A stretch of 64,000 bases of DNA, from positions 724,978-788,977 of the forward strand of contig NZ_CP015193.1 in assembly GCF_002214605.1 (NCBI RefSeq). The letters run 5' to 3'. Source of the DNA: Thermococcus chitonophagus. Lineage in GTDB: Archaea > Methanobacteriota_B > Thermococci > Thermococcales > Thermococcaceae. The notes beneath the pieces are model-generated. The model was not told where the DNA came from. It saw only the letters and a program-made list of their open reading frames with translations, and did not search any database. The translations under genes were made by a program, and so were the position numbers. Positions 24,741 to 30,619 of the stretch are shown piece by piece; within the stretch, counting starts at the first letter, position 1; every line of letters begins with the position of its first letter.

Positions 24741-24936
24741 TTGCTTCCTGAGTCTTGCAGTTTGCTAATAAAGGTTTTGATTAAACATGTCCTTCAAATC
24801 AAACATAAGTCCTTCTTTCCCAGGATCTCTAGCTCTTCTAGCTCCCTTTCCTATCAACGAATTGTTGAAACGTAATTAGTCTAATCGTATTGCAACTTAT
24901 AAACATTTATGAACCACTTATGAGTATTTGGTAGAG
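24741..24936. promoter_or_regulatory. Divergent control region of the channel operon
   Basis: ACTTATAAAC at about 24895-24904 is TATA-like, 33-42 bp before the ATG at 24937. Two inverted repeats lie just upstream: TCAAC-gaatt-GTTGA at 24854-24868 and ATTAG-t-CTAAT at 24875-24885. They may be sites for a regulator. No gene is seen here. Confidence 0.4.
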
Positions 24937-25716
24937 ATGATCCCGATAATCACCTTCCTCCTGGTTGTACTCGTATCGGCGATAATAGTTAGGATAGGGG
25001 CTGTAGCATTGGAAATGACTGGATTATCAAGGGATGTGGCCGCCTTTCAGGCTCAGTCCGCTTTCTCAGGTGTTGGATTCACGACGAGTGAAAGTGAATA
25101 CGTTGTTTCTCACCCCGTTAGAAGGAGGATAATAAGGATACTCATGCTCTTGGGAAGTGCTGGGATTACATCAGCTATAGCCACGCTCGTCCTCAGCTTT
25201 ACTGGGATCACTAGAGAGCAGGCAGGTTATAGGATAATAGTCTTGATCCTGGGCCTCTTTGCCTTGTACTTGTTTTTCCGCTCCAAGTATATTGAGAGGT
25301 TAATGAGGAGAGCAATAAGGAGAATTCTTAAGAAGTTTGCGCCTTCGCTTAGGGTTCTCGATTATTCCCAGCTCCTGGGTATAACTAGGGGTTACTCTAT
25401 AGCTCAGATAAAGGTTAAAAAGACAAGCTGGCTTGCGAATAGATCGCTAAAGGAACTTCAGCTTGACAAGGAGGGGGTACTCGTCTTAGGGATATATAGG
25501 AAGGTGGATGGAAGGGAGGTCTATCTAGGTGCTCCCCATGGTGATACAATAATCCTCCCAGGGGATATTGTGGTTCTCTACGGCCCAGAGGAAGTCCTTG
25601 CCTCCCTATCTAAGAGGATGAGAGGGACTAAGGGAGAGAAAGAGCACGAAGAGGCAGTTAAGATGGCAGAAGTCAGGAGGATGCAGGAGGAGAAGGAGGC
25701 TGGGGTAAGTGTGTGA
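24937..25716 (+). CDS. Membrane protein with TrkA-C (RCK-C) domain and SKT-like pore segment
   Basis: This 259-residue protein has three hydrophobic segments (about 2-25, 66-90 and 98-117) and a cytoplasmic TrkA-C/RCK-C domain (about 145-225) with LGIYRKVDGREVYLGAPHGDTIILPGD split over strands. Between the first two membrane segments lies QSAFSGVGFTTSESE (about 40-54), which resembles the P-loop and single-glycine filter of Trk/Ktr/HKT K+ transporters (SAFxxxGF). This suggests one M1-P-M2 unit fused to a regulator, but the reading is inference. The ATG at 24937 is preferred over the TTG at 24928. Its end overlaps the next gene by eight bases. Confidence 0.65.
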   Translation: MIPIITFLLVVLVSAIIVRIGAVALEMTGLSRDVAAFQAQSAFSGVGFTTSESEYVVSHPVRRRIIRILMLLGSAGITSAIATLVLSFTGITREQAGYRIIVLILGLFALYLFFRSKYIERLMRRAIRRILKKFAPSLRVLDYSQLLGITRGYSIAQIKVKKTSWLANRSLKELQLDKEGVLVLGIYRKVDGREVYLGAPHGDTIILPGDIVVLYGPEEVLASLSKRMRGTKGEKEHEEAVKMAEVRRMQEEKEAGVSV

Positions 25717-27151
25717 GTACGTTTATTCCAGCGGCAAGAAGTGCAGGAGGAAGCCCCTTAAGGGTTCGAAGTACTGCTCACTGCACATTCCTTTTGAGGA
25801 GGGTGAACTGCTCTACGGCGAGAAGATTAAAGAGATAAAGAGAAGGGCATTTGAGAGGTCACTTGAGAGGGGAGTTAGGCACTTCGAGGGCGTTCAGCTG
25901 TACGACATTGTTATCATAGAGAAGGAGCTCAAAGAAGCTCTCATATTCAGAAACTCTAAGATAAAAAGACTCGTAATAGGAAAGTCAAAACTAAAGAACC
26001 TCACGCTTATAAACTCTGAAGTTGATTCCCTTATCATCGTGGAGTCCACTATAGATCTCCTCTATGTTACCGGAGTTAACAGTTATGGAATTAGTGTATG
26101 CTCTGTAGACTTTAAGTCGTCCATATTGATTAGAAATTCTTCAGTCAAGTACGTCATGATAAACTCAACGGAGTTCAGACCGGAGGAGGTTACTGCTGAG
26201 GAAGAGTTCGGTGAAGCTGGGAGGATGGCGGGAAGAATAGAGATTTCGAACCTTGAAGGCGTTAGAAGGATAGCAATAAACTCGAAATATCCTCTAATAG
26301 AGAGGCTAAGTAAAGAGCTTGGAGTTGAATTTAACGTAGTTAAGAGACCTGTGAGGGCTCATACCCTCTACCTTGGAGGAATTAAATTCGACGAGAGTCC
26401 CAGGTTCAAAAGGCAAGTTAGGATATACGTTAACCGCTTTTCTGGGCAGTTGCTCGTGGAGAATGTTTCGGTTCCTGGGCACGTTGAGATTGTGAACAGC
26501 AAAGTTAGATACCCAGAGTTTGTTCATGTCACAATATACAATAATATCGTACTTAGGAATTCCAAGCTCTATAGTGATGAGAACTGGAATTTAGCTTACC
26601 TTCCAAACTTACTGGCCGAGCTTGAGGTTTACGGGTTTATTGTTATAGAGAACTGCCACTTCAACAATCCCTACCTTGCTGAAGTATTCTATAGGATAGC
26701 CAGAACGACATGGGAGAAAAGTGGAGATAAAGAGAAGGCTGATGAATACTACTACTTAGAAATGCTTGCTAGGAGAAAGAGAGTTCTTCAGTACTATAGA
26801 AAGGGTCCCAAGACATTAAGGAGAACCTTCAGGCTCCTTGAGGTTCTCTTTGAGTTCTTCTTTGCAGATCTAACGTGCAAGTATGGAACCGACTGGAAGA
26901 GACCAGTCTTTCTCTGGCTTGCCTTAGTTATATTTGGTTTTCCAGTGCTTTATGCACTAACGAGCTCAGTAACTCCAGTAAATTCAGGGTTTGACTATAT
27001 ATACTTCAGCATAGTCACGGCAACAACTCTTGGTTATGGAGATCTCCACCCAGTAGGGTTAGGTAAGGTTATAGCATCTGTAGAGGCCATATTTGGAATG
27101 TTCATGTGGGCAGTCTTCCTTACCGTCTTCGCGAGAAAGTACATGAGGTGA
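25709..27151 (+). CDS. Zinc-knuckle/beta-helix protein fused to a two-TM K+ channel
   Basis: This 480-residue protein has an unusual layout. Residues 2-26 hold a C-x9-C-x10-C-x2-H knuckle (C2, C12, C23, H26). About 60-310 is rich in short alternating strands (LIFRNSKIKRLVIGKSKLKNLTLINSEV in pieces), like a pentapeptide or right-handed beta-helix. The C-terminal 95 residues are a 2-TM K+ channel: a helix FLWLALVIFGFPVLYAL, the pore helix and filter TTLGYGD (about 438-444) and a second helix. The N-terminal part would be cytoplasmic and could gate the pore. The start is GTG at 25709 overlapping the upstream gene, with GGAGG upstream. Confidence 0.75.
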   Translation: MCEYVYSSGKKCRRKPLKGSKYCSLHIPFEEGELLYGEKIKEIKRRAFERSLERGVRHFEGVQLYDIVIIEKELKEALIFRNSKIKRLVIGKSKLKNLTLINSEVDSLIIVESTIDLLYVTGVNSYGISVCSVDFKSSILIRNSSVKYVMINSTEFRPEEVTAEEEFGEAGRMAGRIEISNLEGVRRIAINSKYPLIERLSKELGVEFNVVKRPVRAHTLYLGGIKFDESPRFKRQVRIYVNRFSGQLLVENVSVPGHVEIVNSKVRYPEFVHVTIYNNIVLRNSKLYSDENWNLAYLPNLLAELEVYGFIVIENCHFNNPYLAEVFYRIARTTWEKSGDKEKADEYYYLEMLARRKRVLQYYRKGPKTLRRTFRLLEVLFEFFFADLTCKYGTDWKRPVFLWLALVIFGFPVLYALTSSVTPVNSGFDYIYFSIVTATTLGYGDLHPVGLGKVIASVEAIFGMFMWAVFLTVFARKYMR

Positions 27152-27155
27152 GAGG

Positions 27156-28283
27156 ATGATAGGCTTCATAGTTAATCCAATAGCGGGAATGGGTGGGAGA
27201 GTTGCCCTTAAAGGTACTGACGGTGTTCTTGAGGAGGCAATAAAGAGGGGGGCTAAACCAGTAACCCCCGATCTTGCTAGGCTTTTTCTCAAGGAACTTA
27301 GGCACTACGACATGAACGTTGAATTTTTAACGGGCCCAGGACCTTTGGGGGAGGATTATCTGAAGGAGTTCGAGTTTAAGCATGAGGTAATTGCTCATAG
27401 AGATGTTGGCTTTAGGGAGATTCATGGGGTTAAGGTTCCAGACACTACATCGGAGGACACCAAGAGGCTTGCTAAGGAGATGATTGATAAAGTTGACCTG
27501 ATAGTGTTTGCAGGTGGTGATGGAACGGCAAGGGACATAGCTGAGGTCGTGGATCTCAAGGTTCCAATACTGGGCATTCCTAGTGGTGTGAAGATGTTCT
27601 CTGGTGTCTTTGCAACTTCCCCTGAGGATGCGGCAAGGGTTCTTGTTGAGTTTCTTAGAGGTAAAGCTCGTATTGAGAGAAGACCAGTCATGGATCTTGA
27701 TGAAGACGCGTACAGAAGGGATGAAATTAGGGCAAGGAAATTTTACGAGGTTCTAACTCCAGTCGTTGAGACCTTGGTTCAGGGTAGCAAGGAAGCCGTT
27801 AGAGCTGATGAGGAAGAGGATCTGAATGCTCTGGCGGAAGCCGTCGCTGAGGAGATACTTGAGAATGATGGAATTTACTTCCTGGGGGCTGGTTCAACGA
27901 TAAAGAAGATTAAGGACAAGCTCGGGATAGATGGAACACTTCTCGGCGTTGATGTCATCAGGGTTAGGAATGGAGAAGCTGAGTTGCTGGTGAAAGATGC
28001 CACTGAAGGAGATCTCCTCTCCTTCATAAAAGAAAAGCCCAAGGTAGTTGTAACGGTTATAGGCGGCCTCAACTTCCTCTTTGGTAGGGGTAACCAGCAG
28101 TTCTCCCCCAAGGTACTCAGGGCGATAGATAAGGATGACCTGATAGTTGTTGCTACTCCCTCGAAGATAAGTTCCGGTATCATAAGAGTTTATACGGGAG
28201 ACAAGGAGGTTGACGAAAAATTCAGAGGATACCTCAAGGTTAAAATCTCTCCATGGATGGAGAAGCTTGTTAAAGTAATTTAG
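27156..28283 (+). CDS. ATP-NAD kinase-like (COG3199) protein
   Basis: This 375-residue protein has the diacylglycerol-kinase/NAD-kinase fold motif GGDGTARD near residues 119-126 and starts IGFIVNPIAGMGGRVALKGTDG, the signature of the COG3199/AcoX-related ATP-NAD kinase group. A second lobe (about 230-345) carries FLGAGSTIKKIKDKLG and VVVTVIGGLNFLFGRGNQQF. Function in the group is not established; phosphorylation of NAD or a related nucleotide is inferred. GAGG precedes the ATG at 27156, four bases after the channel gene, so the three genes probably form one operon. Confidence 0.85.
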   Translation: MIGFIVNPIAGMGGRVALKGTDGVLEEAIKRGAKPVTPDLARLFLKELRHYDMNVEFLTGPGPLGEDYLKEFEFKHEVIAHRDVGFREIHGVKVPDTTSEDTKRLAKEMIDKVDLIVFAGGDGTARDIAEVVDLKVPILGIPSGVKMFSGVFATSPEDAARVLVEFLRGKARIERRPVMDLDEDAYRRDEIRARKFYEVLTPVVETLVQGSKEAVRADEEEDLNALAEAVAEEILENDGIYFLGAGSTIKKIKDKLGIDGTLLGVDVIRVRNGEAELLVKDATEGDLLSFIKEKPKVVVTVIGGLNFLFGRGNQQFSPKVLRAIDKDDLIVVATPSKISSGIIRVYTGDKEVDEKFRGYLKVKISPWMEKLVKVI

Positions 28284-28396
28284 GGATTTTGGAAACATCT
28301 ATTTTTGTAATGGGATGCTGGGAAACACTTAGAAACGCTTACGAAACACGGTATTCCTTATTTTTGTTGGGCTCCTATGGTTTATTGGTGATGGAC

Positions 28397-29521
28397 ATGA
28401 AGAAGGTGTTGGGTGTATTAATACCAATATTATTAATATTAAGCGGGGTGGGAATGAGCCAGGTGAGTGCTGAGACCCAGAGCCTCGTTATACTAGTGAG
28501 CGACAATGAGGCTGATTTAACCTTGGCTCAGAACGTGGCCAAGTTGCTGAACGCCACTGTCGTTGTGACTAAGTGGGGCATCTTCAACGAGTCAGTGATA
28601 TCCCAAATAGTTGACCTTAGCCCGGACATGGTTCTCATAATAGGTGGTCCACTTGCGGTAGTTTCAGTGTACGAAGATGAGCTTGAGAACCTCGGGATCA
28701 ACGTTACAAGAATCGGCGGGCAGGATAGGGTTGAGACAAACCAAGCCCTAATTGAGTTCCTGATGGAGAACTACCCCGAGTTACTCAGCAACGTCACGGC
28801 TGCTATAGCCTATGGCTGGGACTATGCGGCAATGCTACAGCTTAGAAACCAGAGTTGCGTAATTCCAATCCTTGTGAAGAATGCCACTGTAAATGAGACT
28901 ATAGTAAAGCACTTCAAGAAAGTGGAGCTTGTTCAGAGCAGGTTCAGCGAGAGGATAATGGAAAGGGTTAGGGAAAAGCTTGGTGGAGAAGTAAAGGAAG
29001 TTGTAGCAAACATTACGGCTGAAGAGGCTGAGAAGGCCATAGAGGTAGCCCAGGAGAAGGTTCAGTTAGCCGAGAGCGTTCTAGCTAACATTACAAACCC
29101 AAGTGCAGAGAGGCTAGTGGAGTTAGCTAAGGAGAAGCTTGACCTAGCGAAAAAGGCCTATGATGAAGGTAAATATGGGGAGGCATTTGGTCTGGCAGTG
29201 GCTTCGAGGAGGCTTGCCGAGGTCGTGATCAGCTATTCGACTAAGGAATTCGAGAGAAGCATGAAGATGAACCACACGATGCAACTTGAGCTTAGGATAA
29301 GGGTGCTTGAGAGGGTAATGCTCAGGCTCGAAGCTGGTGGGGCCAATGTATCAACAGAGAAAGGCCTGCTCGAGCAGGCAAAGGTAGCACTTAAAAACGG
29401 AGAAGTTGAGAAGGCCAAAATGCTCATCGAAGAAATCGAAAAGGAATTGAGGATAAAGGTCAAGGAGAAAAGAATATCCAAGGAGAAAGAGAAAGTTGCA
29501 AAGAAAGTGGGAGGGAGGTGA
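28397..29521 (+). CDS. Secreted protein with cell-wall-binding-repeat-2-like domain and helical tail (copy 1)
   Basis: The 374-residue protein has a signal peptide (about 1-25). Residues 28-200 form a Rossmann-like half with ILVSDNEADLTLAQNVAKLLNA, LIIGGPLAVV and IGGQDRVETN, features of cell-wall-binding repeat 2 proteins. The C-terminal half (about 200-374) is a long Glu/Lys-rich helical region with two similar units (EEAEKAIEVAQEKVQLAES and ERLVELAKEKLDLAKKAYDEGKYGEA). There is no clear membrane anchor. The ATG at 28397 follows GGTGATGGAC. A paralogue follows after three bases. Confidence 0.75.
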   Translation: MKKVLGVLIPILLILSGVGMSQVSAETQSLVILVSDNEADLTLAQNVAKLLNATVVVTKWGIFNESVISQIVDLSPDMVLIIGGPLAVVSVYEDELENLGINVTRIGGQDRVETNQALIEFLMENYPELLSNVTAAIAYGWDYAAMLQLRNQSCVIPILVKNATVNETIVKHFKKVELVQSRFSERIMERVREKLGGEVKEVVANITAEEAEKAIEVAQEKVQLAESVLANITNPSAERLVELAKEKLDLAKKAYDEGKYGEAFGLAVASRRLAEVVISYSTKEFERSMKMNHTMQLELRIRVLERVMLRLEAGGANVSTEKGLLEQAKVALKNGEVEKAKMLIEEIEKELRIKVKEKRISKEKEKVAKKVGGR

Positions 29522-29524
29522 AGA

Positions 29525-30619
29525 ATGAGACATTTCCTCACCCTCTCTTTAATTCTTGTAGTCGTTTTCTCTGTGTTACCTGCTACTCATGCTCAGATTC
29601 AGGATATTGCAATCTTAGTGAGCGATAACGAGGCTGATTTGACTATTGCCGAGAGAGTAAGTGAACTCCTTCACGCAAGGCTAATAGTGACGCCTTGGGG
29701 AGTTTATGATCCGAACGTTAGTGTTGAGGTCATAGACTATAATCCCACTCTTGTGATAATAATTGGTGGCCCAATTGCCGTAGTTGAGAGATACGAACAG
29801 GATCTCCAATCCTTTGGGATATCCTATACTAGGCTGTATGGCCAGACTAGAGTCGAAACGGCTATAAAAGTCATAGAATTTATACAAAAAGATTATCCGG
29901 ACCTGCTTAAGAATTCTAAGTTTTTTGCTGTTTATGGATGGGATCTTGCCAGCATTACAAAACTTAGGGAAATAATGGAGAGCGACAAAGAAGTAATTCC
30001 GATTTTTGTTGGACCAAATTCAACGAGTGTTCCAGTAAACGTTACAGCCGTGATCGTAAGTGATGAATCAGAGAACATCCTGAAGAAAATCCATCTCAGA
30101 AATGCAAAGGTAATTAGAGTCCGCATGAGCGAGCTCACTGTCTTACAAATCTTGGAGAGGGCAAACACAACGTTACTAAGAGCGAAAAGTCTCGCTGAAA
30201 CTAGTGAAGATCAGAGAATGCTACATTCAGCTGAAGATCTTTTGCTGAGTGCGGAGCATGCATATAAGTCTGGAGATTATGAAAAGGCCTATAGGTTGGC
30301 TACTAGGGCAATGACGATTGCTCAAGTGGTAATAGCTGGAGAGGGCACCAAAAAAGAACTTCCTGTTACAATGAGAATTGAGATGCAGCTAAAGCTAATG
30401 TCACTGCTAATGGATAAGCTTGAGGCTAGGGGTGAAGATGTCTCTCAGGCGAGGTACTATCTGGAGCTTGCGAAAAGGGCTTTAGAGACTGGTAGGGTTG
30501 GAGATGCTATGATATATCTTGAAAAGGCTAGGGATGCTGTAAAGGCTAAGATACGGGGCAGAAAGCCAGAAAGCATTCCGGTTAGCAGGCCTGAGAAGGG
30601 TAGAGGAGGTAAGCCCTGA
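29525..30619 (+). CDS. Secreted paralogue of the preceding protein (copy 2)
   Basis: This 364-residue protein has a signal peptide (about 1-23, ending near THAQ), then ILVSDNEADLTIAERVSELLHA, LVIIIGGPIAVVE and LYGQTRVETA, all matching copy 1. The helical tail again contains DYEKAYRLATRAMTIAQVV and similar alpha-helical hairpin units. The two genes are adjacent (three bases apart) and about equally long, so they arose by tandem duplication. An extracellular, possibly filament-like or envelope role is inferred. GGAGGTGAAGA precedes the ATG at 29525. Confidence 0.75.
   Translation: MRHFLTLSLILVVVFSVLPATHAQIQDIAILVSDNEADLTIAERVSELLHARLIVTPWGVYDPNVSVEVIDYNPTLVIIIGGPIAVVERYEQDLQSFGISYTRLYGQTRVETAIKVIEFIQKDYPDLLKNSKFFAVYGWDLASITKLREIMESDKEVIPIFVGPNSTSVPVNVTAVIVSDESENILKKIHLRNAKVIRVRMSELTVLQILERANTTLLRAKSLAETSEDQRMLHSAEDLLLSAEHAYKSGDYEKAYRLATRAMTIAQVVIAGEGTKKELPVTMRIEMQLKLMSLLMDKLEARGEDVSQARYYLELAKRALETGRVGDAMIYLEKARDAVKAKIRGRKPESIPVSRPEKGRGGKP

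Follow-up and report, generated by a model that had tools for sequence, protein, structure and literature searches.

Solved K+ channels with cytoplasmic regulation mostly place the regulatory part after TM2 or couple it through extra TM helices. HalA, the effector of the Hailong bacterial anti-phage defence, is a DNA-gated channel. Within an architecture that places a repeat domain N-terminal to a two-transmembrane (2TM) pore, it appears to be the sole member whose structure has been solved and whose signal is known. Other members carry generic annotations; pentapeptide/pore proteins of Halobacteria and cyanobacterial plasmids are named "pentapeptide repeat-containing protein" or "potassium channel family protein", as are their counterparts in Aeromonas and among Thermococcales paralogues, and our literature searches returned no paper on pentapeptide-repeat/2TM channels as a class. 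According to one publication, the decoy molecule that Hailong employs is single-stranded DNA (PMC12657218).

The window, meaning the whole 64,000-nucleotide stretch of Thermococcus chitonophagus DNA analysed here, contains a channel gene at 25709–27151 (+ strand, as for all window features below). The 480-aa open reading frame lies at the coordinates given by the initial annotation and begins with GTG. This start is supported by AAGGAGG about 9 bases upstream and by alignment with the MCEY starts of orthologues. Of 94 Thermococcaceae genomes searched, no fewer than 79 contain an orthologue (74 full-length single-frame matches and 5 split or partial ones; a contig-edge fragment in G082 was excluded from the tally), and the gene is therefore core rather than accessory. 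It encodes a real, well-conserved, uncharacterised channel and is apparently a Thermococcaceae housekeeping gene. In three genomes (G080, G069 and G088) the orthologue occupies two frames split at differing points, reflecting either sequencing errors or genuine inactivation.

The initial annotation had read the protein as a knuckle, a beta-helix and a K+ filter, and this domain reading is supported. The N-terminal CCCH knuckle (residues 1–27; 25709–25789) has the spacing C2-x9-C12-x10-C23-x2-H26, with all four residues invariant in 24 aligned full-length orthologues and the same spacing class in paralogues and in Aeromonas. These putative metal ligands retain the Cys3His set of zf-C3Hc3H (PF13891), whose Pfam profile matched weakly and below threshold (18.1 bits; cut-off 27). 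In the AlphaFold2 model, linker helices (residues 28–56; 25790–25876) lead into beta-helix part 1 (residues 57–155; 25877–26173; pLDDT ~95), an insert with a continuing beta region (residues 156–230; 26174–26398; low confidence at 162–171) and beta-helix part 2 (residues 231–320; 26399–26668). Strands are predicted at 58–152 and 176–314, with pLDDT mostly > 90 in models of both the full-length protein and the cytoplasmic half. All models are monomers; the full-length run used a 12-row alignment (mean pLDDT 86.6, pTM 0.77), and the cytoplasmic half alone reached pLDDT 89.4 and pTM 0.87. Residues 60–310, for which the initial annotation had named a known non-helix domain as the contrary outcome, were thus modelled as a beta-helix.

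Family-averaged hydrophobicity across residues 57–155 showed a diverged, pentapeptide-like periodicity of 5 (p = 0.002) and 10 (p = 0.0024) relative to 5000 shuffles. In the same test, residues 176–318 gave no period-5/10 signal beyond the shuffles, so the second half of the beta-helix is taken from the model by itself. Pentapeptide profiles (PF00805/PF13599/PF13576) did not match the window protein at Pfam cut-offs, ruling out canonical Pfam pentapeptide membership; among 12 relatives, one or two gave E values of 0.012–0.016. Polar residues R186, N191, Y194 and D228 in the insert region, together with R238, E251, H258 and E270 in part 2, are invariant in the 24 orthologues, and their conservation suggests a candidate ligand site.

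The beta-helix is followed by an alpha-helical hairpin (residues 321–364; 26669–26800; YRxARxxWExxGDxxxADxYYxEMxxRR in the alignment), with helices predicted at 321–338 and 341–364, which is common to canonical pentapeptide-repeat channels. An interfacial helix (370–389) and the pre-TM1 motif ADLTCKYGTDWKRP come next (residues 370–399; 26816–26905), the motif being invariant save at a few positions in the 24 orthologues. Hairpin, interfacial helix and motif are all additions to the initial annotation. The pore (26897–27148) comprises TM1 (397–418), a pore helix (428–440), the filter (437–445) and TM2 (451–478), with no C-terminal domain. Ion_trans_2 (PF07885) was the sole Pfam domain accepted (residues 403–478; 50.1 bits against a cut-off of 22.5, E = 2.6e-13), and this above-threshold profile, the K+ filter and two predicted TM helices around a pore helix mark a 2TM K+ channel in sequence and modelled fold. 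The filter, T437-ATTLGYG-D445 (TATTLGYGD), is invariant in the 24 aligned orthologues, where its absence from homologues would have spoken against the initial annotation. TM2 is also mostly invariant, and E459, G463 and the terminal RKYMR are among the residues that do not vary. E459 (27083–27085), four residues ahead of G463, is an unusual charge for an inner pore helix. Both termini should be cytoplasmic, since every known 2TM K+ channel has a filter loop that comes in from the outer side.

Structural comparison of the whole model with the PDB returned HalA in complex with oligodeoxyadenylate (9nyi) as the top match (E = 8.2e-4, probability 1.00), the sole chain of 350,542 below E 0.001. HetL, AlbG and Qnr pentapeptide proteins followed, and then KirBac pores. 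HalA has a repeat domain, helices and a C-terminal 2TM pore; TM-scores of 0.29/0.39 (rmsd 11.4) are low, and the likeness is therefore one of architecture, not detail. For the cytoplasmic half alone, HetL was the best PDB match (E = 0.004, none lower) and HalA was not among the best 50. The right-handed beta-helix of HetL, AlbG and Qnr is the best fold for this half, if a weak match (E 0.004 or worse); unlike the window channel, these proteins are soluble, carry canonical repeats and lack a pore. The HalA profile (NCBIfam NF051894) scored 15.7 bits on the window protein (E = 0.0064), far short of its equivalog cut-off of 250, and aligned the last 110 residues of HalA with the last 107 of the window protein, which puts the 2TM pore at the same C-terminal end. 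Among relatives it matched L094 (7.1e-11) and L105 (2.4e-10), both across repeats and pore, and the knuckle paralogue L074 (4.6e-8, covering HalA 166–335). Two profiles, one of the family and one a mixed hairpin-plus-pore profile, were searched against PDB sequences and gave ordinary K+ pores, HalA not being among the best 60, and a viral structure library yielded only pentapeptide proteins, tail-spike-like solenoids and viral mini-channels, with nothing below E 0.004. Set against HalA, the window channel is a core gene with no nucleotidyltransferase neighbour found, a diverged two-part beta-helix and, as a possible further difference, a Cys/His knuckle. The pore modules of Kir/KirBac, KcsA and Lmo2059 have the same 2TM pore and TxxTxGYGD filter; Kir and KirBac carry a C-terminal cytoplasmic domain, whereas the window channel has none and instead a large domain ahead of TM1.

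Pentapeptide-repeat/2TM channels of Halobacteria, Aeromonas, cyanobacteria and the Thermococcales paralogues follow the same order as the window channel, namely repeat beta-helix, helical hairpin, YG..W/xR motif, 2TM pore and chain end, and many share a similar N-terminal knuckle. Pfam Pentapeptide models recognise the repeats of these channels above cut-off but not those of the window channel, whose helix is interrupted by the insert. The Thermococcales paralogues have hairpin and pore in common with the window channel (profile E down to 1e-43) but canonical pentapeptide repeats, preceded in most of them by a similar knuckle (MCK..HFGNCDP......YCIFH). Canonical repeats also lie ahead of the nearest pores outside the window family, from Archaeoglobaceae (L042) and Aciduliprofundum (L043); on the Archaeoglobaceae contig a knuckle is present, frame-split from the pore. 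An Aeromonas reading frame contains knuckle, repeats and pore within 320 residues. In a pore-module tree, Archaeoglobaceae, Aciduliprofundum and the L074 paralogue join the window family in one cluster (88/81), the deeper order being unsafe given long branches (KcsA, L089, Halobacteria and Aeromonas); the KcsA row is provisional. Because relatives carry the knuckle, canonical repeats, hairpin and pore, the window channel is best read as a diverged pentapeptide-repeat/2TM channel in which the gating domain precedes the pore and the chain carries no domain beyond TM2; we infer that its repeats have drifted past Pfam recognition. HalA and the pentapeptide-repeat channels with generic annotations are existing examples of this kind of channel, and the earlier suggestion of an unprecedented combination gives way before the Thermococcales paralogues, the Archaeoglobaceae contig and Aeromonas.

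Two side observations concern paralogues. Thermococcus frames of 666 and 707 aa (L079:975–2972, − strand, and L090:976–3096, + strand, respectively) keep the hairpin, a YGTNWKRT motif and the TM2 E/G residues, with the E459 equivalent retained in ALEMGLG. They have lost the K+ filter, SALVTSDPYV replacing TATTLGYGD, and are possible non-selective or pseudo-channel subunits. L074:1366–4285 (− strand) contains a tandem pair of pentapeptide/knuckle channel genes, one of which is the paralogue nearest the window protein in architecture.

The gene-order survey proposed in the initial annotation gave a mixed outcome, with a stable downstream neighbour and an inconstant upstream one. A 375-aa NAD-kinase-like protein (27156–28283; Pfam NAD_kinase, 7.9e-23) is encoded directly after the channel in 76/79 genomes, usually 7–70 bases past it on the same strand. 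Past this gene the window and Thermococcus L037 no longer agree in gene content, which argues against plain large-block synteny as the source of the linkage. Channel and NAD-kinase-like gene are probably co-transcribed. A second, better-scoring NAD kinase is encoded elsewhere in the genome (C1:981398–981733), and the neighbour is therefore likely to be a paralogue acting on a substrate of its own. Operon linkage by itself names no ligand. Upstream, a membrane protein with a TrkA-C domain (24928–25716; Pfam TrkA_C, 4.3e-14) overlaps the channel frame, as originally annotated, the overlap measuring 8 bases. It adjoins the channel in 15/79 genomes from two genera, lies elsewhere in 10 and was not found in 54. 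Its frame encodes several TM helices and an FSGVGFTTSE segment that recalls Trk/Ktr pore loops, and occurs in 32/94 genomes. At G002:C1:251764–253688 and G003:C92:544–2447, TrkA-C abuts the NAD-kinase-like gene with no channel between, suggesting channel loss or relocation in that genus. No nucleotidyltransferase HalB was found beside the channel, where the flanking Pfam domains are TtuA-like PP-loop, TrkA_C and NAD_kinase and farther neighbours were judged by sequence only. Beyond the NAD-kinase-like gene, 28289–29521 and 29525–30619 are tandem, mutually similar secreted-type frames with LVSDNEADLT near the N-terminus that look like cell-wall-binding proteins.

The order of the domains, their conservation and predicted folds, the gene linkage and the likeness to HalA and the pentapeptide channels are observed as described. 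From these we consider the window protein probably a K+ channel gated by a ligand that its N-terminal beta-helix senses; tetramer formation, conduction, zinc, ligand and gating direction are all inferences. It would be a tetrameric 2TM potassium channel whose whole gating apparatus precedes the pore. In each subunit the knuckle would cap a diverged pentapeptide-type beta-helix, continuing into the hairpin, the interfacial helix and TM1, with the chain stopping just past TM2 at RKYMR. By analogy with HalA, four cytoplasmic rods would assemble beneath the pore. A ligand on this assembly, probably anionic (a nucleotide, an NAD(P)-type molecule or nucleic acid), would shift the hairpin and the pre-TM1 motif, and this movement would control whether TM2 is open or closed around the conserved G463. 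Gating of the pore by the cytoplasmic module, as the initial annotation envisaged, is supported in that it fits the nearest solved structure, HalA. A more specific version, which we hold only tentatively and would not favour at even odds, is a housekeeping archaeal channel whose knuckle and beta-helix sense a signal, nucleotide-type or NAD(P)-linked, that the co-encoded NAD-kinase-like enzyme either produces or uses up, HalA having been recruited from the broader class.

The beta-helix and knuckle might form a passive assembly scaffold, with the pore gated otherwise (by pH, temperature or membrane tension) or acting as a constitutive K+ leak. Among the 24 orthologues, the beta-helix segments (57–320) are 12–18% invariant compared with 59% for the pore and 31% for the hairpin, the pattern to be anticipated were function confined to pore and coupling. 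However, the knuckle is 37% invariant, the eight polar residues listed above do not vary and the solved structure of HalA, a structural relative, contains a ligand; we consider a passive scaffold unlikely. The invariant knuckle would also suit a channel reporting redox or metal status, in which the Cys3His site binds zinc, oxidation or metal loss gates the pore and the neighbouring gene provides a link to NAD(P). The NAD-kinase-like neighbour in 76/79 genomes is consistent with this, as is a CoA-disulfide reductase gene ahead of the channel in one Thermococcus contig; against it, the gene upstream is not the same in another genus, paralogues in other contexts also carry the knuckle, and knuckles of this type are often purely structural. 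We regard this explanation as quite improbable.

HalA as the top structural match, and HalA profile matches among relatives, raise the prospect of a Hailong-like antiviral effector whose opening kills or arrests the cell. Presence in 79/94 genomes with a stable NAD-kinase-like linkage is unlike mobile defence genes, no nucleotidyltransferase was found beside the channel and PADLOC returned no defence-channel match, giving only a spurious 0.01 match to PtuB; a defence effector is accordingly rejected as very improbable. Least credible of all is an obligate complex in which the channel and the TrkA-C protein are subunits. The initial annotation had proposed one complex from the gene overlap, and the 8-base length of that overlap and adjacency in 15 genomes of two genera speak for it, but the proposal is largely unsupported by the survey: 54 of 79 channel genomes are without a TrkA-C homologue, 10 have it elsewhere, and in two genomes of a third genus it abuts the NAD-kinase-like gene with the channel not between them. 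Adjacency in 15/79 led us to reject obligate association as a general arrangement.

The preferred reading, a ligand-gated channel with an N-terminal sensor, has a mechanical consequence. With the whole sensor N-terminal and the chain ending after TM2, opening must be driven via TM1 or the interfacial helix. As a conserved relative of a DNA-gated anti-virus channel, the window channel may be a ligand-sensing channel. Because this archaeal member is core, thermostable and tied to one metabolic gene, it offers a way to test whether beta-helices serve generally as modules for gating by ligands, and whether an ordinary ion-homeostasis channel gave rise to an immune one.
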